A stretch of 64,000 nucleotides of DNA from Propylenella binzhouense (GTDB lineage: Bacteria; Pseudomonadota; Alphaproteobacteria; Rhizobiales; Afifellaceae), in contig NZ_SPKJ01000004.1 of NCBI RefSeq assembly GCF_009866965.1, positions 1 to 64,000 on the forward strand. Reading direction: 5' to 3'. This document shows, piece after piece, positions 5,283 through 49,482 of the stretch. A program made the position numbers and the translations under genes. Positions within the stretch are counted from its first letter, which is position 1, and every line of letters starts with the position of its first letter. The notes beneath the pieces were generated by a model, which made no database searches, was not told the origin of the DNA, and saw only the letters and a list, made by a program, of their open reading frames with translations.

Positions 5283-5780
5283 GTGAGCCTCACGATGGTC
5301 GCACGCCTGCTTCGGCTCGGAATGGGGCTCCTGCTGCTCGTGGCGGTGGCGATCAACGCCGCCAACATCGCGGAGCGCTTCTTCCTCGCCCGCTCCTTCG
5401 TCTGGGCGGAGGAGATCCTCATCCTCCTCAACGTCTGGGTCGTCTTCGTCGGGCTCGTCGTGTGCGCGCTGGAAGGAAGCCACATCAACATCGACCTGTT
5501 CCGCCCGTTCGTTCCGGCCAGCCGGCACGGCTGGCTCGACCGGATCGCCGATCTCGGCGTCGCCATCGCCTGCGGCGGCGTCCTGTTCGGCTCCTGGACC
5601 GTGGTCCGGACCGTCTACCGCTCGGGCCAGGAAAGCATCGCGGCGGGCTATCCGATGATCATCCCGCACGGATTGATCGCCGCCTGCCTGCTCTTCGCCG
5701 CCATCGTCAGCGTCGGGCGCGTCTTCGTCCGGCGCCAGGCGAAATCGGCCGCAAGCCAGGAAACAGACCGCGCGCAATGA
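5283..5780 (+). CDS. TRAP transporter small membrane subunit (DctQ family)
   Basis: A 165-aa integral membrane protein with four hydrophobic segments, and the 'WAEEIL' region near residue 40 that is usual in DctQ proteins. It starts at GTG 5283; an in-frame ATG four codons later is an equally good candidate. Its stop overlaps the ATG of the large subunit by 4 bases, so the two are translationally coupled. Confidence 0.9.
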   Translation: MSLTMVARLLRLGMGLLLLVAVAINAANIAERFFLARSFVWAEEILILLNVWVVFVGLVVCALEGSHINIDLFRPFVPASRHGWLDRIADLGVAIACGGVLFGSWTVVRTVYRSGQESIAAGYPMIIPHGLIAACLLFAAIVSVGRVFVRRQAKSAASQETDRAQ

Positions 5781-7117
5781 CCACGATCTGGACCCTTGTC
5801 GTCGTCCCGGCCGCGCTCCTGATCGTCGGGTTCCCGGTCTTCGCGGCGCTCCTCGTCGCCGGCATCCTGACGCTCGTCCTCGCCTCCTCGGTGCCGCTCG
5901 CCGCCGTGCACCAGGTGATGTTCGGCAGCATCGACAGCTTTGCGCTGATCTCGATCCCGTTCTTCATCTTCGCCGGCGAGCTGATGAGCCGCGGCGGCAT
6001 CTCGCGGCGCATCATCGTCTGGGTGATCACGCTGTTCCGCGGCCGCCAGGCGGTGCTGCCGCTCACCGCGGTCGCGACCTGCACCGTCTACGGCGCCGTC
6101 TCCGGCTCGAGCCCGGCGACCGTCGCCGCCGTCGGAAAGCTGCTCTTCCCGGCGATGCGCTCCGCCGGCTATTCGGCCTATCACGCGGGCGGGCTTCTCA
6201 CCTCCGCCGGCGCGATCGCCATCATCATCCCGCCCTCGCTCTCGATGATCCTCTACGGCGCGGTGGCCGAGCAGTCGATCTCCGACCTCTTCATCGCCGG
6301 CATCGGGCCGGGCCTGCTGCTTTCCGCCTTCATGGCCCTCTACGTCGTCCTTGCCGAGAAGCGGGCGCGCGTCGGAGCGCCCCGGCCCCAGGCGGCCGTC
6401 CCGGCCGCAGCCGGCGCCGTGAAGGACGGCGCGGCCGGGGGCGAGGTGACGATCGGGCTCGGCGCGAAGTCGCTCGCGACCGCGACGCGCGAGGGCATCC
6501 TCGCCATCGGAACGCCGCTCATCATCCTCGGCGGCATCTATGGCGGCGTCTTCTCGCCGACCGAGGCCGCGGGCGCTGCCTGCGTCTACGCGCTTCTCCT
6601 GACGCTGGTGATCTACCGCGAGCTCGACCTGCGCTCGGTGCTGGAGATCGCAGCCGATGCGGCCGTCCTCTCCTCCCAGATCCTCATCATCGTCGCCGCC
6701 GCCGGGGTGTTCTCGTGGCTCCTGACGATCAACGGCGTCGCCCAGGCCGTGCAGACCGCGCTTGCGCCGGTGGCGCAGAACCCGGTTCTGTTCCTCCTCG
6801 CCGTCAACGTGACGCTCCTCGTCGTCGGCTGCTTCATCGACACCAGCTCGGCGATCCTGATCCTCACGCCGCTGATCATGCCGCTCGCCAACATTGCCGG
6901 CATCGACCCGATCCATCTCGGCGTGATCGTCTCGCTCAACCTCGCCATCGGCATGTTCACGCCGCCCTTCGGGCTCAACATCTTCGTCGCGCAATCGGTG
7001 CTGAAGCTCGACATCGGCACGATCTATCGCGGCATCTGGCCGTTCCTGCTGGTCAACCTCGTGGTCCTGCTGATCGTGACCTTCGTGCCGGCGATCTCCC
7101 TCTTCCTGCTGTCGTGA
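5777..7117 (+). CDS. TRAP transporter large membrane subunit (DctM family)
   Basis: A 446-aa permease subunit that drives solute uptake with an ion gradient. The sequence is almost all hydrophobic helices, with DctM-type motifs such as 'FFIFAGELMSRGGISRRI', 'GAVSGSSPATVAAVG' and 'GMFTPPFGLNIF'. The frame is open upstream to 5462, but the ATG at 5777 overlaps the DctQ stop (ATGA) and fits the family N-terminus. An unusual Ala/Pro/Gly-rich hydrophilic loop of about 45 residues near position 195-240 separates two membrane blocks. Confidence 0.93.
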   Translation: MTTIWTLVVVPAALLIVGFPVFAALLVAGILTLVLASSVPLAAVHQVMFGSIDSFALISIPFFIFAGELMSRGGISRRIIVWVITLFRGRQAVLPLTAVATCTVYGAVSGSSPATVAAVGKLLFPAMRSAGYSAYHAGGLLTSAGAIAIIIPPSLSMILYGAVAEQSISDLFIAGIGPGLLLSAFMALYVVLAEKRARVGAPRPQAAVPAAAGAVKDGAAGGEVTIGLGAKSLATATREGILAIGTPLIILGGIYGGVFSPTEAAGAACVYALLLTLVIYRELDLRSVLEIAADAAVLSSQILIIVAAAGVFSWLLTINGVAQAVQTALAPVAQNPVLFLLAVNVTLLVVGCFIDTSSAILILTPLIMPLANIAGIDPIHLGVIVSLNLAIGMFTPPFGLNIFVAQSVLKLDIGTIYRGIWPFLLVNLVVLLIVTFVPAISLFLLS

Positions 7118-37978: not shown

Positions 37979-37998
37979 GAGTGAACAATCAGACACCG

Positions 37999-38553
37999 CC
38001 AGCGCAGATTCCTACCGGTCCGGATCCTATCCGCAGGCGCTGAAGGAGCTGGCGCATCCGGCCGGGGAGAAGGCGTCGGCGATGGGTCCGATGGATGCCC
38101 AGCGGGCCTCGACGGGGCGCTCTGCCGCTCGTCGGAGCAGCGAGTTGAGCTTGGCGAACGCGTTCTCGATCGGGTTGAAGCCGGGGCTGTAGGGCGGCAG
38201 GAAGAGCAGGCTCGCGCCGGCGGCCTTGTTCAGCGCGCGTCCGCGGCCCCTTGTGGCTGGAGAGCTTGTCCATGACGACCACGTCGCCGGGGCGCACCCC
38301 GGGGACGGGCACCTTTCCGACCTGGGCCTCGAAGGCGCCGCGGTTGCTCGGCCCGCCGAGGACGAAGGGCGCATCATGCCGCGCAGGGTCAGCGCGCCGA
38401 CGCAGGTCGTCTTCTTCCAGTGGCCGTGGGGCATGCCGGCAAGAAGCCGCTCGACGCGCCGGCCGCGCCCGTGCGTGCGGGCCATGTCGGTCTTGGCCCA
38501 GGTCTCGTCGATGAACACCAGCCGCTCGGGATCGGCATCGATCGAGCCGTCAA
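37999..38553 (-). mobile_element. IS630-type transposase remnant (right copy, inverted)
   Basis: Carries parts of all three DDE motifs: 'LVFIDETWAKTDMARTHGRG', 'GDVVVMDKLSSHKGPRTR' and 'SPGFNPIENAFAKLNSLLRR'. They lie in different frames: the sequence shifts after 'GALTLRGMM' and shifts back near 'LLFLPPYSP', so no functional protein results. It is closely similar to the left copy at 21481-21917, which runs the other way, and both share the same outer end (around CCGGTCCGGATCC-type sequence). Confidence 0.85.
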
Positions 38554-38634
38554 CCGCAATAATTACGGATTTTATCGTGACTGTCGTAGTGACAGCGCCT
38601 GGATATAAGGGTCTTCGTTCACATCGACGTAGAA

Positions 38635-39615
38635 TTACTGCAAAAACGGATGCGATAGATCGTTCGTGCACAGTCTGATCGGCGCCCCCGCGAGAAACGC
38701 CGCTACATTCTCGACGATCTGGGGGAAGAAGAGGTTGTAGGTCTCCTCGGTCACATAGCCGAGATGAGGGGTCAGCAGAACGTTGTCGAGGGAGCGATAA
38801 GGATGGTCGAGCGCGATAGGTTCATGTTCGAAGACGTCGAGGCCCGCTCCCGCAATGCGCCGCTCCTGCAAGGCCTCTATCAAAGCGGTCTCCTGGACGA
38901 TAGGGCCGCGGGAGGTGTTGATGAGAATGGCGCTCGGCTTCATCCTTCCGAGCATGCGGTCATCAATCAGGTTGCGGGTCCGGTCGCTGAGAATCAGATG
39001 TATGCTGATTACGTCCGCCTCGGCCATCAGAGTTTCGAGCGGAACGAGCGTCGCGCCGGCCTCGGCTGCCTGCTGCTGCGTCATGTGCTTGCTCCACGAC
39101 AGGACGTTCATGCCGAACGCATAACCGTAACCGGCCACCGTCCGACCGATATTGCCGAGCCCGAGCACGCCGAGAGTCAAACCTCGCAGATCCCTTCCGA
39201 TCGTCGTCTGCCATTTTCCTTGAAGGAGCGCATTGTGCTCCCGCGTGATGTTTCGCGTCAGGTCCAGGATCAGCCCCCAGGCCAGTTCCGCCGTGGCCGC
39301 GTAGCCTGAGCCGTTGTCGGTGCCGGAAACGATGACGCCGTAATCCGCGGCAGCGCTCAAATCTATCGAGAAATTGACTTCACCGGTCGTGGCCAAAAAT
39401 TTCAGATTCGGCAATTGCTCAAAAACACTGCGGGGAAAGGCAACCCTTTCACGCATGGCGCAAATGATCTCATAATCCTTGAGACTTTGGATCATCTGTT
39501 GCTGGTTCTGAAACGGTTCGGTGAAAACGTCTATCGTGGTTTGACGTGCGACGTCCGACCAATCGGCGAATGTCAGCGCGACGTTCTGATAGTCGCTCAG
39601 GATAGCAAGCCTCAT
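38635..39615 (-). CDS. D-2-hydroxyacid dehydrogenase-family protein
   Basis: A 326-aa NAD(P)-dependent dehydrogenase that interconverts 2-oxo and D-2-hydroxy acids. Rossmann motif 'LGVLGLGNIGRTVAGYGYAF', catalytic Arg in 'INTSRGPIV', Glu in 'VFEHEP', His in 'LTPHLGYVTEE'. The ATG at 39615 is chosen because it opens the conserved 'MRLAILSDYQNVAL'; the upstream open frame is unrelated. It lies just outside the right IS630 remnant, but its upstream region has a site like those of the island, so it probably belongs to the same pathway. Confidence 0.92.
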   Translation of the reverse strand: MRLAILSDYQNVALTFADWSDVARQTTIDVFTEPFQNQQQMIQSLKDYEIICAMRERVAFPRSVFEQLPNLKFLATTGEVNFSIDLSAAADYGVIVSGTDNGSGYAATAELAWGLILDLTRNITREHNALLQGKWQTTIGRDLRGLTLGVLGLGNIGRTVAGYGYAFGMNVLSWSKHMTQQQAAEAGATLVPLETLMAEADVISIHLILSDRTRNLIDDRMLGRMKPSAILINTSRGPIVQETALIEALQERRIAGAGLDVFEHEPIALDHPYRSLDNVLLTPHLGYVTEETYNLFFPQIVENVAAFLAGAPIRLCTNDLSHPFLQ

Positions 39616-39925
39616 TCTGTCCTCCGAGGGCTTAAGGACGCACAGAGCCGTTCGGTGAGCATCAGAGCCGCCGAGCAATCCGGCAACATGCCTACAGTAT
39701 GCAGTAGGACGATTCAAAATGAAAATCGAGGTGGAATGCTCCCGTTTTTTGGCCGGGTCCGGCCATGGAAAGGGCCGGAACAAGAGCAATCGTCCGCCTT
39801 GCGCAACGGACCCGGAGCCACTATCCCCGTGCGCTCGAGCGCAGCGGCGAGAGCCCGGTGAGGACCGCCGCGCAGCAGCTCGAGGGGAAAGGCCCGGGGT
39901 GACCCAGCCCCCTCATTGCCCTCGC
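39616..39925. other. Upstream region of the hydroxyacid dehydrogenase
   Basis: About 310 bases without a gene between the dehydrogenase start and a transposase remnant. It contains the dyad at 39691-39708. Nothing else is recognised. Confidence 0.45.
39691..39708. promoter_or_regulatory. Dyad upstream of the hydroxyacid dehydrogenase
   Basis: CCTACAGTATGCAGTAGG has perfect 5-base arms (CCTAC/GTAGG). Read on the minus strand it holds ACTGTAGGCA, close to the ACTGTAGACA core seen at the other island promoters. It sits about 75-95 bases before the gene, between a TTGAAT and a TAGGCA with a 17-base spacer. Confidence 0.45.
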
Positions 39926-40320
39926 TCATAAGGAGAGTCTGTTCTCATTCTGGTCCGTTCGGGACCGGGTGGCGAGCTCGTGTGGCGTCAGTCCGCCGAG
40001 CCTCGTGTGCGGCCGGCGCTGATTTTAGCCCTCCGGCAGGTGTCTAGAACCGCCTGCATTTCCTCGATGGTCTCGAACCAGGTGCGGCGCCCCTCGACGC
40101 GGAAGTGCTCGTCGAGCAGGGCGCGATCCAGCCGCTCGACGATGCCGTTCGACTGCGACCGCTTGACCCGCGTGGTGCGGTGCCCGATGTCCGCGAGCTG
40201 GAGGAACAGCTCGTACGGATGCTGGTCGGGCCGGCCGCAGAACGCGCGATGACACCCGAAGATCAGCTTCTGCGCGTCCTTTCCGGTGCGGCCATGACCG
40301 CGATCGACGGCCGGACCCAA
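39926..40320 (-). mobile_element. Transposase 3' remnant (IS3/IS481 integrase-core type)
   Basis: C-terminal part of an rve-type transposase: 'RPDQHPYELFLQLADIGHRT', 'VKRSQSNGIVERLDRALLDE' with the catalytic Glu, and 'GRRTWFETIEEMQAVLDT'. It then changes frame to 'NQRRPHTRLGGLTPHELATR', the usual end, with a TGA at 39926-39928. The N-terminal two thirds is missing. Located just before the biosynthetic operon. Confidence 0.8.
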
Positions 40321-40438: not shown

Positions 40439-42163
40439 ATGTCTGAGCTGTTGAAACCGCAGGTCGAGGGGATGGAGGCTCGGGCGACGCCCGAGCCCTT
40501 CATGGCCTTCTTCGAGACGTTGCAGCGCGCCATGGCCGCCAGGGAGTTCTCCACGGCGCAAAGCATCCTCGACAGCGCCGAACCAGGTTGGCGGAACCGC
40601 CTTCCGGCCAGGCGGCTGGAGGCCCGCCTGCTTCTTATGCAGGGCAGACTCCCCGAAGCGGAAGCCGCGTGCCGTGCCATTCTCGAGACGCGTCCCGACG
40701 ACGTCTCCGTCACGGCTCTTCTGTGCAGGGTGCTGGCCGCCGCGGGGCGCGCCGATGAGGCGCGCGATCTGTTTGAGCGGCATCTGTGGACGAGCGAGCT
40801 GACCCCCGAGCAGAAGGCCGGCATTCTGGCCGACCTCACCAATGCGGGCGGCGCCGGCGAGATCGAGGCGTTCGTCCGGCGGCTCGAGGCGACGCGGCCG
40901 CTGGGGCCAGGGGAATCGGGTCGGCTTGCCATTTCCGAAGCCCGGCTCGGACTGCCCGAACGCGCTCTGGAGAGGCTGATGGGCGTGGAGCGGGCAAACG
41001 ACCTGTCGCAAGTCCAGACATCGCAGCTGATGCAGCTTCTCGTGCAGGAATTCAGGCTCGACGAGGCCCGGGCCCGAGCGGCCGCGCTCACCGAACGCGA
41101 GCCGACCAATCCGGAATGGCTGCTGCGCCTGGCGCAGATCGAATTCCTGGAAGGCAATATCTCCGCGGCTGCCGACCGGCTCGCCGCGGCCTTGGCACTC
41201 GCGCCGGGCACACCTGCCCTCCTGAGGGCGCTGGTCGGCATGCCGATGTCTCCCGACCGCTTCCGGGACATCTTCCGCCAAGTCGAAGCCGCCCGCGATC
41301 ACGTGGAGTTCACCGAGGTCGCGAATTGGTCGTTCGCGCTGGCAGCGCTGCAGGCACGGGAGCCCGAGGCGGCGATCAAGGCGCTGGAGACGATCGGGCC
41401 CGGCTCGGACGAATTCCATGCCAACGCCCAGCTCATGCTTTCCGTTCTCCGCAGTCGCCCGCTCGAGGACTGGATCGCACGGCCGCGTCTGGCCGACGAC
41501 CCCACGCGGGCCGCTCGGATCGTATGTCGGGATGGCGCCGCGGCGACGCTGATCGTATTCCCCGGGCTGCACAACCAGTTCGGTAACCTGCCGTACGGCT
41601 ACTTGGACGTTCTTCTGTCCGAGCTGCCGGCCAATATCGTGTACCTGCGCGACCTTGGGCAGACTGCCTTCCTGGACGGCACCCGCGGGCTGGGCGAAAG
41701 CGAGCCGGCGATGGCCGACAGCCTGAAGAGGATGGCAGGCGAGCTCGCCGCGCCGCGGATCGTGACCCTCGGAAGCAGCATTGGCGGGTTTGCAGCGATC
41801 CGCTACGGCGCACGGCTCGGCGCGGCGGCCGCGGTCTCGTTTTCCGGACCGAGCAAGCTGTACTCGACCGACGACCGGCCGGACCGCTCCAAGCGCCGCG
41901 TCGGGCTCGCCTTCATGCGGCGCTATTCCGAGCGTCAGCGCGATGTCCTGCCGGATGTCCGGGCGAATCCGGACATGACGGTCTGGCACTTCGCCGGCGC
42001 GGAGAACGTCGAGGATATCGGCCAGCAGAACAGGCTGCTCGGCCTTCCCCAGGCGAGGCTAGAGACCGTTCCCGGCGTGGCGAGCCACAATACAGTGTTG
42101 CCCACCATCGCGGCCGGACGCCTGTTGGCGATCGTCGCGCGGGCGGTCGGCGGGGATGCCTGA
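40439..42163 (+). CDS. TPR-repeat/alpha-beta-hydrolase fusion protein
   Basis: A 574-aa two-part protein, not recognised as a named family. Residues about 20-345 are helical TPR-like repeats ('LPARRLEARLLLMQGRLPEA', 'CRVLAAAGRADEARDLF'), suited to protein-protein contact. From about 360 there is an alpha/beta-hydrolase-like half: 'AATLIVFPGLHNQFG', a nucleophile elbow 'LGSSIGGFAAIRYG' with Ser447, and a late His550 in 'GVASHNTV' as a possible triad member. No signal peptide. As first gene of an operon with an acyl carrier protein, it could be a thioesterase or acyltransferase that meets the carrier through its repeats (inference). Confidence 0.75.
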   Translation: MSELLKPQVEGMEARATPEPFMAFFETLQRAMAAREFSTAQSILDSAEPGWRNRLPARRLEARLLLMQGRLPEAEAACRAILETRPDDVSVTALLCRVLAAAGRADEARDLFERHLWTSELTPEQKAGILADLTNAGGAGEIEAFVRRLEATRPLGPGESGRLAISEARLGLPERALERLMGVERANDLSQVQTSQLMQLLVQEFRLDEARARAAALTEREPTNPEWLLRLAQIEFLEGNISAAADRLAAALALAPGTPALLRALVGMPMSPDRFRDIFRQVEAARDHVEFTEVANWSFALAALQAREPEAAIKALETIGPGSDEFHANAQLMLSVLRSRPLEDWIARPRLADDPTRAARIVCRDGAAATLIVFPGLHNQFGNLPYGYLDVLLSELPANIVYLRDLGQTAFLDGTRGLGESEPAMADSLKRMAGELAAPRIVTLGSSIGGFAAIRYGARLGAAAAVSFSGPSKLYSTDDRPDRSKRRVGLAFMRRYSERQRDVLPDVRANPDMTVWHFAGAENVEDIGQQNRLLGLPQARLETVPGVASHNTVLPTIAAGRLLAIVARAVGGDA

Positions 42164-42166
42164 CGC

Positions 42167-42868
42167 GTGCGGATCGCTGCTCTCGCCGGGCCAACCCGCC
42201 CAACCGCTCCGCGTCCGCACGAGGCGCTCGCCGCGCTCGCTCACCGGCTCCAGGCGTTCCAGTTCCTGCTCGACCGCTTTTGGCCCGAACCCGGGAGCCG
42301 CCGGATCGTCGATCTTGGTGCCGGGCACGGCCTGTTCGCTCAGATCGCAGCGCGTCGCGGCTTCTCCGTGACGGCCGTCGACGCACGGCCGCAATGGACT
42401 CTCGCCGATGCGCTTTCCATCGGCCGCAAGCAGCCGAGCCGCGCACGGCCGGAAGTCGCGTGGATCGAAGGCGACGTCCGCAGTTTCGATACGGCAGGCT
42501 TCGACGTGGTCTTGGCGATCGGCCTCACCTACCACCTGCCGCTTCAGGCGCAGCGGGATTTCCTTCGGCGGACAGCCGGACAGGCCACCGTGATCGACAC
42601 CGAGATCTACGATCCGAGTGACCCGGATGCCGCGGCCTGCGAGCGTCTGCGTCCGGTCGTCCTCGACGGCTACGACGGCGCGCTCTGTCGGGAAACCGGC
42701 GACCTCTGGTCCTCGATCGACAACGAGGAATCCTTCTGGCCGAGCCACGATGCAATGCTGCGCATGTGCGCCGGGGCAGGCCGGGCGAGCGTGATCGCCG
42801 TCGGAGCGCCGTACCGGTCCCGCTTCGGCTGGCGGCAGTGGTACGTCCTCGATGGACCGCTGCCATGA
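42167..42868 (+). CDS. Class I SAM-dependent methyltransferase
   Basis: A 233-aa protein starting at GTG 42167, three bases after the previous stop. The SAM-binding motif I is 'RIVDLGAGHGLFAQIAARRG', motif II region 'VTAVDARP', and 'WIEGDVRSFDTAGFDVVLAI' follows. The acceptor is unknown; in this cluster it may methylate a sugar, an acyl chain or the pyruvyl-modified product. Its stop overlaps the next ATG (ATGA). Confidence 0.85.
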   Translation: MRIAALAGPTRPTAPRPHEALAALAHRLQAFQFLLDRFWPEPGSRRIVDLGAGHGLFAQIAARRGFSVTAVDARPQWTLADALSIGRKQPSRARPEVAWIEGDVRSFDTAGFDVVLAIGLTYHLPLQAQRDFLRRTAGQATVIDTEIYDPSDPDAAACERLRPVVLDGYDGALCRETGDLWSSIDNEESFWPSHDAMLRMCAGAGRASVIAVGAPYRSRFGWRQWYVLDGPLP

Positions 42869-44100
42869 GCGACGCCAGACGCGTGCTCGTCACGGGCACT
42901 TTCGACGTCGAGAACTACGGGGATCTCCTGTTCCCGATCGTCGCAGCTCATGAACTCGGATCAAGGGGGTTCGGGGTCGTTCCCGTTTCCCCCACCGGCG
43001 CAGCGGTGACCGGACTGGCGGATGCTCCGCGTCCCGTCACCGTCGCCGAGATGATGAGCGGAGAGGCGCCGATCGCGGGCATCCTGATAGGCGGCGGATA
43101 CATCGTCCATCACCATTCGGCGAGCGTCCTTTCCGAGTATGAGAGCGCCGGAGTCGCGGACTGGGCCTATGCCGGCCTCTGGCTCGGCGCTACGGCGGCG
43201 GCTGCGCTCCGAGACGTGCCGGTCGCCTGGAACGCACCCGGCGCTCCGGTGCCGTTCGGCGGCGCCGGCAGGCGGGCACTCATCGGCTCGATGCTGAGGG
43301 CCGCCACTTACGTCAGCGTGCGGGACCCCGGGAGCCTGGAATTCCTCGGGCAGCACGAGGGCGTCGACATAAGGGTCGTCCCCGACACCGTGCTCGGACT
43401 TGCCCGCGCGTGGCCCCGCGAAGCTCTGGCGGATGCTTGTCGGACGCTCGCGGCTCGCAAGGGCATCTCCGCCGGCACCCGCTGGCTGGCGGTTCACCTG
43501 CGAATGCGCACGCTCGGCCAGCTGCAGCTTGCCGATCTCGCTCGCTCAATCGACGCGATCGCTGCGCGGTGGGAGGTCACGCCGCTTCTCATAGCGCTCG
43601 GGAGGAGCCTGGACGACGCGGCTGCGGTCAGCGCGCTTTCGGATACGCTCCGCTGCGGCCATGTCCGCCTCGACGATCCGACGAGCCTCAAGGAGATCGC
43701 TGCCGCGATCGCCTTCAGCCGGGCCTATGTAGGCGCTTCCATGCACGGCTATGTGACGGCCTGCGCGTATGACGTCCCGGGCGTGATGGTCGCGCGGCCG
43801 GCACACCGGAAGTTCGGCGGGCTGGTGAGCCAGCTCGGCCGCCGGGGCGACCTCGCCCAGGACTGGACGAGCGCACTCGATGCGGTCGAGCGCCACATGG
43901 CGGCGACCCCGTCGCCCCGGATTCCGGCCTCGGTTCGAATGGCGCTCGACCAGCACTGGTCGGAAATCGGCCGCGCGCTGGAGGATACTCGTGAGGCCGC
44001 CGAGCGGCGCCGGCGCTTTCTCGTCGACTATCTGCGGTCGGCGATCGGAGGAGCGGGAGCCGCATGGGCCTTCCAGCCGTTCGTGTCGGCGCGCCGATGA
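42865..44100 (+). CDS. Polysaccharide pyruvyl transferase-family protein (copy 1)
   Basis: A 411-aa protein of the PF04230 type, which usually transfers pyruvate from PEP to a sugar to form a ketal. The N-terminal 'GTFDVENYGDLLFPIV' (NYGD at 17-20), 'ILIGGGYIVHHHSASV', 'YVSVRDPGSLEFL' and the C-terminal 'YVGASMHGYVTACAYDVPGV' are typical. The ATG at 42865 overlaps the methyltransferase stop. No signal peptide. It is a clear paralogue of the next gene. Confidence 0.85.
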   Translation: MSDARRVLVTGTFDVENYGDLLFPIVAAHELGSRGFGVVPVSPTGAAVTGLADAPRPVTVAEMMSGEAPIAGILIGGGYIVHHHSASVLSEYESAGVADWAYAGLWLGATAAAALRDVPVAWNAPGAPVPFGGAGRRALIGSMLRAATYVSVRDPGSLEFLGQHEGVDIRVVPDTVLGLARAWPREALADACRTLAARKGISAGTRWLAVHLRMRTLGQLQLADLARSIDAIAARWEVTPLLIALGRSLDDAAAVSALSDTLRCGHVRLDDPTSLKEIAAAIAFSRAYVGASMHGYVTACAYDVPGVMVARPAHRKFGGLVSQLGRRGDLAQDWTSALDAVERHMAATPSPRIPASVRMALDQHWSEIGRALEDTREAAERRRRFLVDYLRSAIGGAGAAWAFQPFVSARR

Positions 44101-45392
44101 TCGGGCAATCGGCAGGAGACCACGGCCGCCGTGTCTTCATGGCGGGGCTCTTCGACCTCCGCAATTACGGCGACCTTCTGTTCCCGCTGCTCGCCGACCG
44201 TCGCCTCGCGCAGTACGGCTACCGGATCCAGCCGGTCACCCCCGCCGGGGGCTCCTGCGGATGGGCGGACACGACGCCGTGCATTGCGCTGGAGGGTCTC
44301 TTTGCGGAGGAAGGGCAACCCGCAGGTGTGCTCATCGGCGGCGGAAACATCGTCTACGGCGGCGTGCGCGGAAACCATTTGTTGCCCAATTCACCCGAAA
44401 CGGCCGATCGCGGAGAACTGGCCGCCTGGGGGCCACCCGGCCTTTGGCTCGGGCCGGCCCTCGCCGCAGCCGTGCACGACGTGCCGATCCTCTGGAATGC
44501 GCCGGGGCTGCCGCATCCCCTGGCCGGCCACTGGCGCAGCCTTCTCGGCTCGGCCCTCGACGCGTCGGACTACGTGAGCGTGCGCGAGGAGATGAGCCGG
44601 TCTCTCGCGCTCGAGACCTCGAGCCGGGCGGATATCCGTGTGGTCCCGGACAGCGCGGCCGAGCTCGCCCGGTTATGGCCGAAGGCCGGGCTCGCCGCCG
44701 TCTATCGCACGCTTCTGGAGCGCAAGGGTGCGCGACCGGATGTCCGCATTTGGGCCATTCACCTGCGAGACAGGTCGCTTGGCGAGCACTCGCTCGCGGA
44801 GCTGGCGCGTGAGATTGACCGTATCGCCGCGCGGACCGGCCTCACGCCGGCGCTGGTCGCGATAGGCCCGGGGCTTGGCGACGCGACCATGGTGCGCGAG
44901 CTGAACGACCGCCTCACAGTGTCGGCGCTGCCTCTCGATGATCCTGCCGGGCCCCGCGAGATTGCCGCCCTCATCTCCCACGCGCACCTCTATGTTGGTG
45001 CTTCGCTCCACGGCTACATCACTGCGGCGGCGTACGGCGTGCCGGGTTTGCTGGTCGCGCGCCCACGGCACCGGAAGTTCTCGGGCTTCGTCTCGCAGAT
45101 CGGCCGGAGCGGCGATCTCAAGGGCGACTGGTGCGCGGCCTTGGACGCCGTCCCTCCCGCGCTCGCCGAAGGTCCGAGCGCGCGCATCCCGGACGAGGTC
45201 CACGCCCGACTTGACCGGCATTGGGCCGCGATCGCCGCCGCGCTGAGCAATCCCGCCCGGAGCCGGGCCGCGCGGGCGGCCTTTCTCCGCACCGTCGTTC
45301 GGCTGGGCCTGCGGACGCCGTTCGGTCCGGCCTGGCTGCTCTCGCCCATGCTCCGGTCGCGAGCCCATCAACGCCCCGGTGCTTCCGCATGA
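44097..45392 (+). CDS. Polysaccharide pyruvyl transferase-family protein (copy 2)
   Basis: A 431-aa paralogue of the previous protein: 'FMAGLFDLRNYGDLLFPLLA' (NYGD at 23-26), 'GVLIGGGNIVYGGVRGNHLL', 'YVSVREEMSRSLAL' and 'YVGASLHGYITAAAYGVPGL'. The ATG at 44097 overlaps the previous stop (ATGA) and is preferred over an ATG at 44064. The two copies share the whole domain plan but differ in many positions, so they are an old duplication and could act on different acceptors or form a heterodimer. Confidence 0.85.
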   Translation: MIGQSAGDHGRRVFMAGLFDLRNYGDLLFPLLADRRLAQYGYRIQPVTPAGGSCGWADTTPCIALEGLFAEEGQPAGVLIGGGNIVYGGVRGNHLLPNSPETADRGELAAWGPPGLWLGPALAAAVHDVPILWNAPGLPHPLAGHWRSLLGSALDASDYVSVREEMSRSLALETSSRADIRVVPDSAAELARLWPKAGLAAVYRTLLERKGARPDVRIWAIHLRDRSLGEHSLAELAREIDRIAARTGLTPALVAIGPGLGDATMVRELNDRLTVSALPLDDPAGPREIAALISHAHLYVGASLHGYITAAAYGVPGLLVARPRHRKFSGFVSQIGRSGDLKGDWCAALDAVPPALAEGPSARIPDEVHARLDRHWAAIAAALSNPARSRAARAAFLRTVVRLGLRTPFGPAWLLSPMLRSRAHQRPGASA

Positions 45393-47125
45393 CGCTCGAC
45401 CTTGTCGGCGGACCGGACATTCTTCGGCCGCCCTTCCCCGTACCGGATGTCCTCCTCGACCCGACGGCCGACACGCTCGTCGACCTCATCCGGCGTCGCG
45501 CAGCGGCGCACCCGCAGCGAACCGCCCTCTCCCATCTCGACCGCGGCGAACGGATCGCGGAGGAGGTGAGCTATGGCGAACTCGACCGGCAGGCGCGGGC
45601 CGTCGCCGGGTGCCTCCGCAGCGCCGGGCTCGCCGGAAAGGCCGTTCTCCTCAGCCTGCCGTCGGGGCTCGACTTTCTGCGCTGCTTTCTCGGATGCCTC
45701 TATGCGGGTGCCTTTGCCGCGCCGGCGCCGGGCATCGAGGGCCGGCGCAGCCTCGAGCGGAACCGCTCGATCATCCGCAGCCTCCGGCCGGCGGCAGTGA
45801 TCGTACCGGACGGCGCGCACTGTCGGGCGCTGGGCGGGGATCTGCCGGCGGCCTGCCTCGTGATAACCCCGACGGAAGCACTGGATAGCACCCCCGCCGA
45901 GCATCTCCGGCGGCCGAAGCCGGACGAACTCGCGTTCATCCAGTACACCTCGGGCTCGGTGTCGGACCCCCGCGGCGTCGGCGTGACGCATCGCAACATC
46001 ATGGCCAACCAGGCCATGATCCGGGAGGCGTTCGGCCACAGCGCCGATCTCGTCGTGGTGAACTGGCTGCCGCTCCATCACGACATGGGACTGATCGGCT
46101 CGGTTCTGCAGGCCCTCTATCTCGGCGGGCGGTGCCTCTCTATGTCGCCCCTCGCCTTTCTGCAGAAGCCCTCGCGCTGGCTGAGTGCGATCCACGCGTT
46201 CGGGGCGAGTTCGAGCGGCGGGCCGAACTTCGCCTACGACCTCTGCTGCCGGAAACTGGACGAGACGAGCACGCGCCGGCTCGACCTCTCGGCCTGGCGG
46301 GTGGCCTTCTGCGGCTCCGAGCCGGTGCGCGCCGGCACCTTGAGACGATTTGCCGACGCCCTCAGGCCTGCAGGCTTCTCCGAACAGGCGCTCCATCCCT
46401 GCTACGGCATGGCGGAGGCCACCCTCTTCGTCAGCAGCGGTCCTCCTGGATCCGGTTTGCGGACCCGGAGGTTTGCCGCCGAGACGGTCTCTTGCGGCCG
46501 CGCTTTCGGAGGCTCCCGGATCGCCATTCTCGGCGCAGGGGACGCGCCCGCCGCCGATGGCCAACCGGGCGAGATCTGCGTCGCCGGCGACCACGTGAGC
46601 CCGGGCTTCTGGGATGCCGATGCCGGAATGATCCGCCCCGATCCGGCACGCGAGACCCTGATCGAGGACCGGCGCCACCTCAGGACCGGCGATATCGGGG
46701 CGATCGTGGCAGGAGAACTCTTCGTGCTCGGCCGCAGCCGCGACATGGTCGTCGTCCGCGGCACGAAGGTTCATGCAGAGGACGTGGAAGCGACCGCGCT
46801 GGCGCCGGAGACGGGGGCCGGGCTCGCAGCAGCCGCGGCCTTCGGCATCGAGGAGGAAGACGGAGAAAGCCTGGTCGTGGTTTGCGAGATGGCCCGCACG
46901 GCCGAATCCGAAGGCGAGCGGGAGCTGCTGGTGCGCCGGCTTCGGGCGACGATCGGGGAATTGCACGGCCTGGTGCCCGCCGACGTGGTGCTGGTGCGGC
47001 CGGGCGTCATACCGCGGTCCATCAACGGCAAGATCCGCCGGTCCGCCTGCCGGGCGCTCTACCTGGAAGGCAGCCTTGCAGGCTACAGCTGGCGCTCCCG
47101 GTCGACCGAAGGAGCCTTCGCATGA
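45389..47125 (+). CDS. Fatty acyl-AMP ligase (FAAL-type adenylation enzyme)
   Basis: A 578-aa adenylate-forming enzyme that activates a carboxylic acid as acyl-AMP and normally passes it to an acyl carrier protein. FAAL-like motifs: P-loop 'QYTSGSVSDPRGVGVTH' (about 185-201), 'NWLPLHHDMGLIGSVLQALY' (225 on), 'GGPNFAYDLCCRKLDE', 'AFCGSEPVRAGTL', 'YGMAEATLFVSS' (339 on), 'RTGDIG' and a C-terminal Lys in 'SINGKIRRSACR'. The P-loop is slightly unusual (Val-Ser after GS where Thr is common; Arg for Lys). The start overlaps the previous stop (ATGA). The partner is presumably the ACP at 48312. Confidence 0.92.
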   Translation: MTLDLVGGPDILRPPFPVPDVLLDPTADTLVDLIRRRAAAHPQRTALSHLDRGERIAEEVSYGELDRQARAVAGCLRSAGLAGKAVLLSLPSGLDFLRCFLGCLYAGAFAAPAPGIEGRRSLERNRSIIRSLRPAAVIVPDGAHCRALGGDLPAACLVITPTEALDSTPAEHLRRPKPDELAFIQYTSGSVSDPRGVGVTHRNIMANQAMIREAFGHSADLVVVNWLPLHHDMGLIGSVLQALYLGGRCLSMSPLAFLQKPSRWLSAIHAFGASSSGGPNFAYDLCCRKLDETSTRRLDLSAWRVAFCGSEPVRAGTLRRFADALRPAGFSEQALHPCYGMAEATLFVSSGPPGSGLRTRRFAAETVSCGRAFGGSRIAILGAGDAPAADGQPGEICVAGDHVSPGFWDADAGMIRPDPARETLIEDRRHLRTGDIGAIVAGELFVLGRSRDMVVVRGTKVHAEDVEATALAPETGAGLAAAAAFGIEEEDGESLVVVCEMARTAESEGERELLVRRLRATIGELHGLVPADVVLVRPGVIPRSINGKIRRSACRALYLEGSLAGYSWRSRSTEGAFA

Positions 47126-48315
47126 CGGCCGCGCTTCTCGGGACGCAGGACCTTGGCGAGGGGCTGCACCTGGAGGATGACGAGCCGGTCTGGATGCCGG
47201 TCGAGCGGGCATGGCGCGTCTCCCGCTACGTCGACGTCGACCGGCTCCTGCGGCATCCGGCGGTCGAGGTCATCGAGATGCACCAGCGGATCGCGCGGCT
47301 CGGAGCCAGCGGCGGGCGCGATTACGCCAGCCTCTCCAGCCTGCTCGCGGCGACCCTGTTCTACCGCAACGCGGCGTTTCACACCGATGGCCGCCGCTTC
47401 CTGCTCCGAACAATGGCCGAGCTCAGGAATGCGCTTTCGGAGCCTGCGCTCAGGCGGATCGCAAGGGCGATCGTCGGGGAGGCTCGCGAAGGCGGCCGCA
47501 CCGAGGCCATGCAGGCCATCTGCATGCGCATGCCCCTCGCGGTCATGACCGAGGCGCTGGGCCTCTCGCCCGCCACCGGCGAAGCGATCGCTGCCTCCGG
47601 CGGACGGATCATAGGCGCTTGGCTCCCGGCCCTGCCGATGCGGATTCTCGACCTGCTGCAAACCGAAGCCGCCACGATCGAGCGGCTCATCGAAGAGGAC
47701 ATGCGGACGGCAGCCGCGGACGGCACCGCCGGGCTCGCGCTCATGATGCGGCTCAACGCCGACGGCTTCGGATTCACGCCGCGCCAGATCGCCGGGCTTG
47801 CGTTCTTCCTCGTCTTTGCGGGGGTCGAGACCACCTCCGCCTTCATGGGCGCCGCGCTCCACCAGATCCACGCGCATCCTGACGTCGAGGCGCGGCTGCG
47901 CGCCGATCCCGCCCTGATCGCGCCGGCGCTGGCAGAAGTGCTGCGACTTGCCGGACCGGTCCGGCGCGTGAACGGACGCGTTCTCGGGTCGGAGATCACG
48001 CTCGGCGGACGCTCCTTCGAAGCGGGGACGGCGCTCGCGGCGGATCTCGAACGGGCCAATCACGATCCCGCGGTCTTCCCGGATCCGGCGCGGTTCGACA
48101 TCGACCGCCGCGGCCCGGCGAGCTTCGGCTTCGGCGTCGGCGCCCACGCCTGCATCGGCGCTGCGCTCGCCCGGCTCGAGACCCGGATCCTGGTCGAGGA
48201 AATCCTTTCCTCGGCCCGGGTGGAGCTTGTCGATCCGACACCGCGATGGCAGCAGAATCCCGCATTCAGACGCCTTGAGCGCCTGGACCTGATCTTGAGA
48301 TCCCTTCCGGAATGA
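47122..48315 (+). CDS. Cytochrome P450
   Basis: A 397-aa soluble bacterial P450. I-helix oxygen-binding motif 'FAGVETTS' (A233-T238), ExxR as E272-V-L-R275, and heme loop 'FGFGVGAHACIG' with Cys344 as thiolate ligand. No membrane anchor, so it needs separate redox partners, none of which is in the window. The C-helix WxxxR-type heme contact is H87-x3-R91. Placed between a FAAL and an ACP, it may hydroxylate or desaturate a carrier-bound acyl chain, as P450 BioI does in biotin synthesis (analogy). ATGA overlaps at both ends. Confidence 0.93.
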   Translation: MTAALLGTQDLGEGLHLEDDEPVWMPVERAWRVSRYVDVDRLLRHPAVEVIEMHQRIARLGASGGRDYASLSSLLAATLFYRNAAFHTDGRRFLLRTMAELRNALSEPALRRIARAIVGEAREGGRTEAMQAICMRMPLAVMTEALGLSPATGEAIAASGGRIIGAWLPALPMRILDLLQTEAATIERLIEEDMRTAAADGTAGLALMMRLNADGFGFTPRQIAGLAFFLVFAGVETTSAFMGAALHQIHAHPDVEARLRADPALIAPALAEVLRLAGPVRRVNGRVLGSEITLGGRSFEAGTALAADLERANHDPAVFPDPARFDIDRRGPASFGFGVGAHACIGAALARLETRILVEEILSSARVELVDPTPRWQQNPAFRRLERLDLILRSLPE

Positions 48316-48587
48316 AGGCCTACGAAGCCATGAAACAGGCACTCGACGCGGAATTTCTTCGCGCGTGGATTGTAAATTACATCTCGTCCGTGCTCGACAT
48401 GGACAAGGAGACATTTCCGACCTCCGAGCCTTTCGACAGCTACGGTTTCGATTCCGCCGAGGCCGTCATCATGGCCGGGGTGATGGAGGAGGAGTTCGAC
48501 GTCGAGATCGACCCGTCCCTGTTCTTCGAGGAACCTTCGGTCGACGGCCTCATCAGCGCGCTGCGCGCCGCCGGCCTCGCGGCCTGA
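48312..48587 (+). CDS. Acyl carrier protein
   Basis: A 91-aa acidic four-helix protein. The phosphopantetheine site is Ser48 in 'SYGFDSAEAVIMAG', a DSxE-like variant of the usual GxDS(L/M); Ala-Glu after Ser is common in carrier proteins with FAAL partners. 'FDVEIDPSLFFEEPSVDGLI' matches helix III. It starts in a 4-base overlap with the P450 gene. Likely carries the acyl chain made by the ligase. Confidence 0.9.
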   Translation: MKAYEAMKQALDAEFLRAWIVNYISSVLDMDKETFPTSEPFDSYGFDSAEAVIMAGVMEEEFDVEIDPSLFFEEPSVDGLISALRAAGLAA

Positions 48588-48609
48588 CCGCGCCCGGCGC
48601 TTCACCTCG

Positions 48610-49482
48610 ATGACCGAGCCCGCCGCAAGCATCGTGGTGATAAGCCACGAGATGGCACGCGAGCTTCCGCGCACCCTGCTCTCGCTGTCTCCGGCCTATC
48701 AGCGTTGCTGTTCCCCCGGAACGTGCGAGATCATCGTCGTGGACAACGGCTCCGCGCGCCCGCCCGCTGCACGCGATTTCGACCATCTCGGCCTCGACAT
48801 CGCGGTCCACGTCTTCCCGGATCCGTCGCCCTCTCCGGTCGCGGCGCTCAATTTCGGCCTGTCGCTGGCACGGGCGCCCTTGATCTGCGCGTGGATCGAC
48901 GGCGCGAGATTGGCATCGCCGGGGCTCGTCGGCGCTTCGATCGCGGCCGCACGCCTCCATCCGCGGCCGGTGATCGCCTCCCCCAACTACCATCTGGGTC
49001 CCGGCCGGCAGTACGTCACCGTGCGCCAGGGCTACGATCAGGCAGAGGAGGATCGGCTGCTGGCGTCGATCGGCTGGCCGGCCGAGGGGGACCGGCTGTT
49101 CGAGATTGCGACGCCGGTCTGGCACGCCGGAGAGCTCGGGCCGATGCTGGAAAGCAACGCCCTGTTCCTGACCCGCGCGATGTGGGACGAACTCGGCGGC
49201 TACGATCCGCAGTTCGACAGCCCGGGGGGAGGAGCAGCCAATCCCGACGTGTTCATCAGGGCCTGCGAATTGCCCGGCGTGCAGCTGGTGCGGCTGAAGG
49301 GCGAGGCGACCTTCCACCAGGTGCATGGCGGGGTGTCGAGCAACGCCTCGAACTACGCGATCGACGTCGGCAAGGCGATCAGCCGCGAATATTTCAGGAT
49401 CCGGAAGCGGCCCCTCACGCCGGTTCGTGACCGCGGCTGGGTTTTCGATACCCGATCCGGGCAGCTCTGCCTGGATGCCTGA
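48610..49482 (+). CDS. Family 2 glycosyltransferase
   Basis: A 290-aa GT-A-fold enzyme transferring a sugar from a nucleotide donor. N-terminal 'ASIVVISHEMARELPRTLLS' and 'CEIIVVDNGSARPP' hold the nucleotide-binding Asp; 'LICAWIDGARLASPG' is the DXD-like metal site. 'ESNALFLTRAMWDELGGYDP' is the acceptor-side block. No membrane segment, unlike many lipid-linked GTs. It is last in the operon, 22 bases after the ACP gene, the only gap wider than a few bases in the run. Confidence 0.88.
   Translation: MTEPAASIVVISHEMARELPRTLLSLSPAYQRCCSPGTCEIIVVDNGSARPPAARDFDHLGLDIAVHVFPDPSPSPVAALNFGLSLARAPLICAWIDGARLASPGLVGASIAAARLHPRPVIASPNYHLGPGRQYVTVRQGYDQAEEDRLLASIGWPAEGDRLFEIATPVWHAGELGPMLESNALFLTRAMWDELGGYDPQFDSPGGGAANPDVFIRACELPGVQLVRLKGEATFHQVHGGVSSNASNYAIDVGKAISREYFRIRKRPLTPVRDRGWVFDTRSGQLCLDA

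Follow-up and report, generated by a model that had tools for sequence, protein, structure and literature searches.

What might be made by an operon that combines an acyl ligase, a cytochrome P450, a carrier protein, a glycosyltransferase, and two related PF04230 proteins? This question is raised by positions 40439-49482 of a stretch of 64,000 nucleotides from the alphaproteobacterium Propylenella binzhouense (assembly GCF_009866965.1, contig NZ_SPKJ01000004.1, positions 1 to 64,000; hereinafter the window), where eight open genes lie on the forward strand, each with one terminal stop. On the basis of gene content, gene fusions, and conservation across genomes, we propose, with a probability of about one half, that they specify a non-modular carrier-protein pathway making an acylated, capped sugar, in which an oxidized chain is joined to a decorated sugar. 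The genes are as follows.

40439..42163, +, TPR superhelix plus alpha/beta-hydrolase protein (TPR-hydrolase; P0001), 574 aa; Pfam TPR_19; AlphaFold model
42167..42868, +, class I S-adenosylmethionine methyltransferase (P0002), 233 aa, GTG start; Methyltransf_25, 37 bits (cut-off 27)
42865..44100, +, PF04230 protein 1, "Y type" (PF04230-1; P0003), 411 aa; PS_pyruv_trans, 59.7 bits (cut-off 25.3)
44097..45392, +, PF04230 protein 2, "N type" (PF04230-2; P0004), 431 aa, ATG at 44097; PS_pyruv_trans, 68.9 bits (cut-off 25.3)
45389..47125, +, fatty acyl-AMP ligase (FAAL), 578 aa; AMP-binding, 197 bits
47122..48315, +, cytochrome P450, 397 aa; PF00067, 87 bits; heme Cys present
48312..48587, +, acyl carrier protein (ACP), 91 aa; PF00550 PP-binding, 52 bits; DS motif
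48610..49482, +, GT2-family glycosyltransferase, 290 aa; PF00535 Glycos_transf_2, 28.2 bits (cut-off 23.3)

ATGA overlaps couple five successive junctions (methyltransferase/PF04230-1, PF04230-1/PF04230-2, PF04230-2/FAAL, FAAL/P450, and P450/ACP), and the overlap with the PF04230-1 gene makes 44097 the most likely start of PF04230-2. The GTG start of the methyltransferase lies 3 bases past the TPR-hydrolase stop, and the ACP and GT2 genes are separated by 22 bases. A promoter scan found 0 candidates, and a terminator scan found 6, versus 3.7 +/- 2.0 in shuffles. An earlier sequence-only reading had placed these eight families here on one strand with near-zero spacing; the Pfam matches, the AlphaFold model for the hydrolase half, and the open frames bear out the former statement, and the five overlaps and two short gaps the latter.

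Conservation of the gene cluster

We scanned the genome_contigs collection with a six-sequence PF04230 alignment and kept 71 distinct loci from the best 80 of 187 confirmed stretches (loci are denoted below by our own L numbers; contig ends cut some of them). With the border set at 38% PF04230 identity, a value chosen after the data had been seen, 33 loci fall at or above it, and the FAAL, ACP, GT2, P450, and TPR-hydrolase are all present in 25 of these, four of them in 5, three in 1, and none in L040 and L041. Among the 38 weaker loci, which include all of L065-L088 at 26-34% identity, 34 have no partner, 2 have one, 1 has two, and 1 (L046) has all five. On the basis of these counts (all five partners in 25/33 versus 1/38 loci), the adjacency is more than chance.

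For the remaining counts we used a core of 36 loci, namely, the window, the Sphingobium plasmid L013, and 34 of the 71, chosen partly for visible cluster genes; locus hidden Markov models were trained on core members, which favors detection there, and matches below 40 bits were left out. L020 has a cluster almost identical to that of L013, and L042 and L014 are one and the same contig. Within the core, the ACP is found in 34 loci, the FAAL in 33, and the GT2, P450, and TPR-hydrolase in 32 each, followed by PhyH-type oxygenases (25), a two-domain glycosyltransferase (23), a methyltransferase of the window's family (10), and a ketosynthase (6). The other 37 loci yielded a FAAL in 2, a GT2, a TPR-hydrolase, and a ketosynthase in 1 each, and the two-domain glycosyltransferase in 12, making this last enzyme a poor marker; the profile searches detected the ACP, P450, and PhyH in none of them. 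The earlier statement that no polyketide synthase (PKS) or nonribosomal peptide synthetase (NRPS) module accompanies the operon is true of the window; some of its relatives depart from it, with a ketosynthase in 6 of the 36.

The gene order is also conserved. The eight-gene order of the window is repeated gene for gene in Gemmobacter megaterium (L030), and the block PF04230-FAAL-P450-ACP-GT2 recurs in L029, L030, L031, L034, and L044. The first PF04230 gene of the Gemmobacter cluster (L030, 9309-10462) is split over two frames, reflecting a frameshift or an assembly error. Nine loci with the other genes, including the window, are without PhyH; two GT2 genes occur in five of the nine, versus 1 of the 25 PhyH-bearing loci (L037). 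When the distance matrices of seven families were compared, with L020 excluded and 20-32 loci per pair, r ranged from 0.79 to 0.93, and 0 of 2,000 permutations reached the observed value in each of the 21 pairs. The locus counts, the repeated order, and the correlated distances from this genome-wide check together uphold the view that the genes are conserved as a unit.

Gene fusions offer further clues. The TPR-hydrolase and a PF04230 protein share one frame in five loci, with the hydrolase first in L042 and PF04230 first in L050, L053, L055, and L064, and a partial version lies at the locus end in L023 and L047. Eight loci have a PF04230-methyltransferase fusion (L013, L018, L020, L024, L025, L026, L027, and L032; two are near-identical). 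These two kinds of fusion suggest that the hydrolase, PF04230, and methyltransferase enzymes share one acceptor. On the other side, the ligase open reading frame (ORF) of L014 (same contig as L042) carries a C-terminal PP-binding domain at residues 616-669, a fusion with a carrier domain that marks the acyl side of the pathway. This fusion, together with the co-occurrence of the two families across loci, supports the pairing of the FAAL with the ACP that had been suspected from the window. L038 has both GT2-PhyH and FAAL-PhyH fusions.

Predicted enzymes of acyl activation, oxidation, and glycosylation

The ligase matched 16 PDB sequences at E<=1e-40. Eleven carry FadD, fatty acyl-adenylate ligase, or acyl-CoA synthase names, and the remaining five comprise three "polyketide synthase" entries, "saframycin Mx1 synthetase B," and McyG. 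The best match is 7r7f (E 3e-108), one of the "polyketide synthase" entries, and 3kxw, FadD23/28/32, and 3pbk are also among the 16; we take 7r7f and 3kxw to be FAALs. By these sequence relationships the window ligase is FAAL-like, and the other AMP-binding proteins of the host genome match it at 26-32% identity in an own-genome search.

Residue counts here and below cover only those matches above a length limit. The heme Cys of the P450 is kept in 31/31 aligned proteins, and the helix-I Thr position is variable (Thr in 14, Ser in 10, and another residue in 7). The top NCBIfam match of the P450 is a P450-derived glycosyltransferase activator (76.9 bits, cut-off 343). Such activators are not known to have the heme Cys, and we rejected this role for the P450 because the Cys is retained throughout the alignment. 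The phosphopantetheine Ser of the ACP is likewise kept in 34/34, and the retention of catalytic residues in both proteins supports the sequence-only interpretation. In the WIDGAR motif of the GT2, the first Asp is kept in 36/36, and the second Asp position is Ala in 35/36 and X in one. In the relatives' loci, the His, Asp, His, and Arg of the PhyH proteins are kept in 50/50.

The PF04230 pair

Across the 4.7-Mb draft genome, PF04230 matches are confined to the two proteins of the operon, which share 46% identity. Two full-length PF04230 proteins could be seen in 21 loci, and in 19 of these one protein has Asn and the other Tyr or His after the GGG motif; the two exceptions are L029, with two Asn forms, and L037, with Tyr and Glu forms. 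In a tree of the family, 23 of 28 Tyr forms fall within one 25-member clade (support 0.998), and a 14-member clade mixes the types, so the pairing is not simply the product of one old duplication. The two proteins are probably not redundant. The PF04230-2 model (pLDDT 91.8) has a GT-B-like fold, and its closest folds are UDP-GlcNAc 2-epimerases and BshA-type glycosyltransferases, with Z up to 21.5 (for a UDP-GlcNAc 2-epimerase); PDB sequence searches with PF04230 alignments found no relative.

The TPR-hydrolase protein

The AlphaFold model of P0001 (pLDDT 90.7) consists of an N-terminal TPR superhelix and a C-terminal alpha/beta hydrolase at about residues 344-574; the latter half had no Pfam match and was recognized from the model. 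The first Foldseek matches of the model are SPINDLY, with the TPR domains of O-GlcNAc transferase (OGT) close behind. For the hydrolase domain, the top fold match (VIA) is 6oyc_B from the Gap123 glycosylation-associated complex (Z 18.1, 210 aligned residues, rmsd 3.3), followed by an esterase (16.8), the meningococcal capsule O-acetyltransferase (16.7), and Ag85C (16.6), with many esterases below. Chain B of 6oyc is presumably an Asp2-like Gap2; Asp2 of the accessory Sec system is akin to Gap2, and Ag85 is a mycolyltransferase. In the 31 aligned hydrolases, the nucleophilic Ser is kept in 31, the Asp in 28, and the His in 28, the latter two assigned from conservation and position. A Ser-Asp-His triad is also what Asp2 is reported to use in acetylating GlcNAc on a glycoprotein (PMC5578698). 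The glycan O-acyltransferase-like fold of the model suggests a role for this protein, which the sequence-only reading had left unassigned, and we propose it as a putative glycan O-acyltransferase.

A single in-frame stop interrupts a few of the TPR-hydrolase matches, namely, those in L064 and L033 and a TPR piece in L030. Additional hydrolase matches were present in four of the genomes. The one in L090 (about 5616-6260) neighbors a TPR ORF, with glycosyltransferase and, as judged by eye, sulfotransferase-like ORFs around it; that in L092 corresponds to no called ORF; and a second TPR-hydrolase in the Jiella genome (L091, 4344-5948, +) runs into an ORF that by eye is radical-SAM-like, away from the FAAL cluster. 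L093 has a 272-aa hydrolase in uninformative surroundings.

A proposed pathway and its alternatives

Gene content, co-conservation, fusions, and catalytic residues are the observations from which we infer every substrate, the order of the steps, and the product. In the proposed pathway, the FAAL would form an acyl-AMP and load the chain onto the ACP of the operon, and the P450 would hydroxylate the ACP-bound chain, a step for which many relatives also have a pair of PhyH-type oxygenases and some have a ketosynthase. The GT2 would make the glycoside, whose sugar hydroxyls would then be capped by the methyltransferase and by the non-equivalent pair of PF04230 enzymes, most likely with pyruvate ketals from phosphoenolpyruvate (PEP). 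Finally, the alpha/beta-hydrolase domain might act as an O-acyltransferase that passes the oxidized chain from the ACP on to the sugar, and the TPR superhelix might keep the partners together.

Several observations weigh against this pathway and its proposed product. The window is without the PhyH and two-domain glycosyltransferase genes carried by 25/36 and 23/36 core loci; a search of the host's own genome returned two PhyH matches elsewhere and, in a search without a positive control, no match to the two-domain glycosyltransferase. In the flanks of the relatives' clusters, judged mostly by eye with ten ORFs examined by Pfam, no recurrent sugar-nucleotide, lipid-carrier, or export family was recognized, the recurrent exception being ABC-ATPase ORFs of mixed kinds at 7/36 loci. 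The GT2 motif is D-G-A-R, not D-x-D, and Pvg1p is not among the best 50 fold matches listed for the PF04230-2 model. In the hydrolase, the Asp and the His are each absent from three of the 31 aligned proteins, and the esterase scores as high in the fold comparison as the capsule O-acetyltransferase (16.8 and 16.7), so the domain could free the chain instead. The correlation of distances may also be expected from shared descent of the hosts or of whole clusters.

The donor site of the PF04230 proteins belongs with these points. In CsaB, residues R148, H308, and K328 are reported to be critical to PEP binding and R306 to contact docked PEP (PMC10435577). We aligned the PF04230 proteins with WcaK, placing the CsaB numbers by motif order, without the CsaB sequence. 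The positions so matched to the first three residues are conserved in the cluster proteins (R in 57/57, H in 57/57, and K in 56/57, with one R), and the position matched to R306, which is Arg in Escherichia coli WcaK, is Ser in 57/57, as it is in 38/38 PF04230 proteins from the other 37 loci. Because of this Ser, and although the equivalents of R148, H308, and K328 are kept, the predicted donor site is mostly, not wholly, of the known kind. The label "pyruvyl-transferase" given to the pair from the window alone is justified insofar as the family cut-off is passed, but the Arg docked to the donor in CsaB is replaced, and for this reason "pyruvyl transferase" stays a family name here.

The main, though less likely, alternative is that the PF04230 pair acts not on a sugar but on the hydroxylated acyl chain, closing ACP-bound diols into pyruvate-derived cyclic acetals, with the GT2 adding a sugar or playing a minor part. 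There is precedent in the chitinimine pathway, where the proposed role of ChtnH, a putative pyruvyl transferase, is to join pyruvate to two lipid-chain hydroxyls as a six-membered cyclic acetal supported by nuclear magnetic resonance, and in the megapolipeptin pathway, where an enzyme related to ChtnH is said to esterify a chain hydroxyl (PMC13291983). The co-occurrence of the PF04230 genes with a FAAL, an ACP, and up to three oxygenases is consistent with such a role; the single oxygenase for two PF04230 enzymes in the window, a GT2 nearly as conserved as the ACP (32 versus 34 of 36), and the eight PF04230-methyltransferase fusions speak against it. The cluster data decide for neither acceptor. 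Were the chain the acceptor, we can conceive of a possible outcome in which an anionic, acetal-capped lipid is handed by the TPR-hydrolase to a sugar or a protein. It would represent a new use of PF04230 in a free-standing FAAL-ACP-oxygenase line without PKS or NRPS, sparse across Alphaproteobacteria.

The hydrolase domain might instead be a thioesterase that releases a free hydroxy acid or a glycosylated acid with no acyl transfer to a sugar. Esterases and lipases do fill much of its fold list, and thioesterases of the same fold accompany many carrier-protein pathways; we nonetheless find this reading doubtful, as the top match, from a glycosylation-associated complex, outscores the first esterase by 1.3 Z, and fusions of the domain involve PF04230 in five loci and a FAAL or ACP in 0 of the 36 examined. 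Cytosolic protein glycosylation, with the TPR recruiting a surface protein, as in O-GlcNAc transferase, to be glycosylated, acylated, and capped before export, would account for SPINDLY and OGT in the Foldseek list, the match of the hydrolase domain to the Gap123 complex, the autotransporter ORF 3.4 kb from the L023 cluster, and flanks in which no lipid carrier or flippase was recognized. Given that TPR matches are generic and that the listed flank families (Pfam on ten ORFs) include no recurrent adhesin, flagellin, or secretion family, we regard it as unlikely. That unrelated genes of broad families lie side by side by chance, without joint function, as the transposase-like ORFs upstream might hint, is very improbable, and we reject this reading in view of the repeated co-occurrence and the fusions, to which the ATGA coupling may be added.

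Genomic surroundings

Upstream of the operon, a DDE_3 transposase ORF was identified by Pfam at 38027-38671, and a transposase-like tail at 39988-40320 was recognized by eye without a Pfam match; the transposase-like ORFs together lie within 37989-40320. In the relatives, the flank families found in at least three loci are antisense artifacts, the mixed ABC-ATPases, SDR, kinase-like, FtsK-like, GGDEF, and methyltransferase-like ORFs, and a GT2-containing protein. GGDEF proteins of one family lie near the cluster in two Sphingobium loci and in Fulvimarina and Aurantimonas (L013, 8503-9714; L020, 2503-3711; L026, 18493-19650; L032, 16975-18132), at differing edges of the cluster; the assignment comes from the annotation in L013 and from Pfam GGDEF and 5TMR matches in L032. 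Perhaps this neighbor places the cluster under cyclic di-GMP control. The Pseudooceanicola cluster has an ORF with thiol-activated-cytolysin and PAN matches about 1.5 kb away (L038, 5127-7406, -), and about 3.4 kb separate the Neoroseomonas cluster from the autotransporter ORF of L023 (2063-3928, -).

Distribution and relatedness of the clusters

The cluster is sparse. A search with PF04230-1 matched 5 of 385 genomes of the class, with strong pairs only in the host genome and one other (G345), and a search with PF04230-2 matched 2 of 101 genomes, namely, the host itself and one with a 34% match. The host RpoB is 82-83% identical to those of eight locus genomes (L019, L028, L031, L032, L034, L036, L037, and L043), which belong to Ancylobacter, a Pseudoxanthobacter metagenome-assembled genome (MAG), Corticibacterium, Aurantimonas, Oryzicola, Mesorhizobium, and Aquabacter; it matches that of Jiella (L027) in pieces at 79-87% and those of the remaining locus genomes at 71-74%, with one short piece at 77% and no match in 2 of the 31 genomes. 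By these RpoB identities the host probably belongs to the Hyphomicrobiales, the order of these genera; a 16S search of the draft gave no match.

Gemmobacter megaterium has the nearest cluster by FAAL, ACP, and GT2 (57, 58, and 66%); its RpoB identity to the host is 73%. The nearest P450 is in L029 (38%; that of Gemmobacter, 36%), the best-scoring PF04230 protein points to L035 (49%), and the nearest TPR-hydrolase is in L044 (30%), that of Gemmobacter being too short in the match list for comparison. When genomes were grouped by RpoB, with L027 set to 82 from at least three pieces of 79-87%, FAAL identity to the window averaged 44.0 in the high group (n=8) versus 40.0 in the low group (n=15; p=0.17), and the groups were likewise similar for the GT2 (p=0.92), ACP (p=0.80), and TPR-hydrolase (p=0.63). 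This lack of a clear dependence on RpoB fits horizontal spread, though it is no proof of it.

The genome of L055 is titled an Exiguobacterium profundum MAG; at 71% RpoB identity to the host, it lies within the range of other locus genomes and is probably a misnamed bin. In a delta-proteobacterial MAG (L058, 8997-13764), two PF04230 genes and a related GT2 occur without a FAAL or ACP in 20 kb, possibly a sugar-only form of the cluster.

Comparison with known systems and implications

Mycobacterial lipooligosaccharide loci, unlike the window cluster, have a large PKS, Pap acyltransferases, and MmpL export; some glycolipids of Mycobacterium smegmatis reportedly bear pyruvate, and we know of no P450/PhyH-ACP block or TPR-hydrolase in these systems. 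Neither a PKS nor a Pap acyltransferase is among the eight genes of the window by Pfam and NCBIfam. What the acyltrehalose lipooligosaccharide systems share with the cluster is FadD-type ligases, glycosyltransferases, and an acylated sugar (PMC7261415). The chitinimine and megapolipeptin pathways likewise place a pyruvyl transferase in an acyl-chain pathway with carrier proteins, but they are PUFA-synthase-like PKS-NRPS hybrids (PMC13291983), whereas the window has one FAAL, a free ACP, a P450, a PF04230 pair, a GT2, and a TPR-hydrolase.

The ketal-pyruvyltransferases CsaB, WcaK, and Pvg1p share PF04230 with the cluster proteins, which keep the positions of CsaB R148, H308, and K328 but differ in the Ser at that of R306 (57/57) and in forming non-equivalent pairs beside a FAAL and an ACP. 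Accessory Sec Asp2/Gap2, the best fold match of the hydrolase domain, has the same Ser-Asp-His set; in the cluster, the hydrolase instead shares its protein with a TPR superhelix and, in five loci, also with PF04230, and no accessory Sec genes were recognized in the flanks. The suspicion that this combination is undescribed agrees with our literature search, in which open-licence PubMed Central full texts yielded no description, subscription papers and cluster databases lying outside the search. Each enzyme comes from a known family, and it is the conserved combination and the TPR-hydrolase/PF04230 fusion that appear new.

About thirty genomes thus share a unit bringing together lipid activation, carrier-bound oxidation, glycosylation, and PF04230 chemistry, which provides a defined core protein set for genome mining. 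Within this unit, the TPR-hydrolase is a candidate carrier-protein-linked glycan acyltransferase, and the PF04230 pairs offer a test of whether members of the family without the Arg of CsaB R306 still use PEP.

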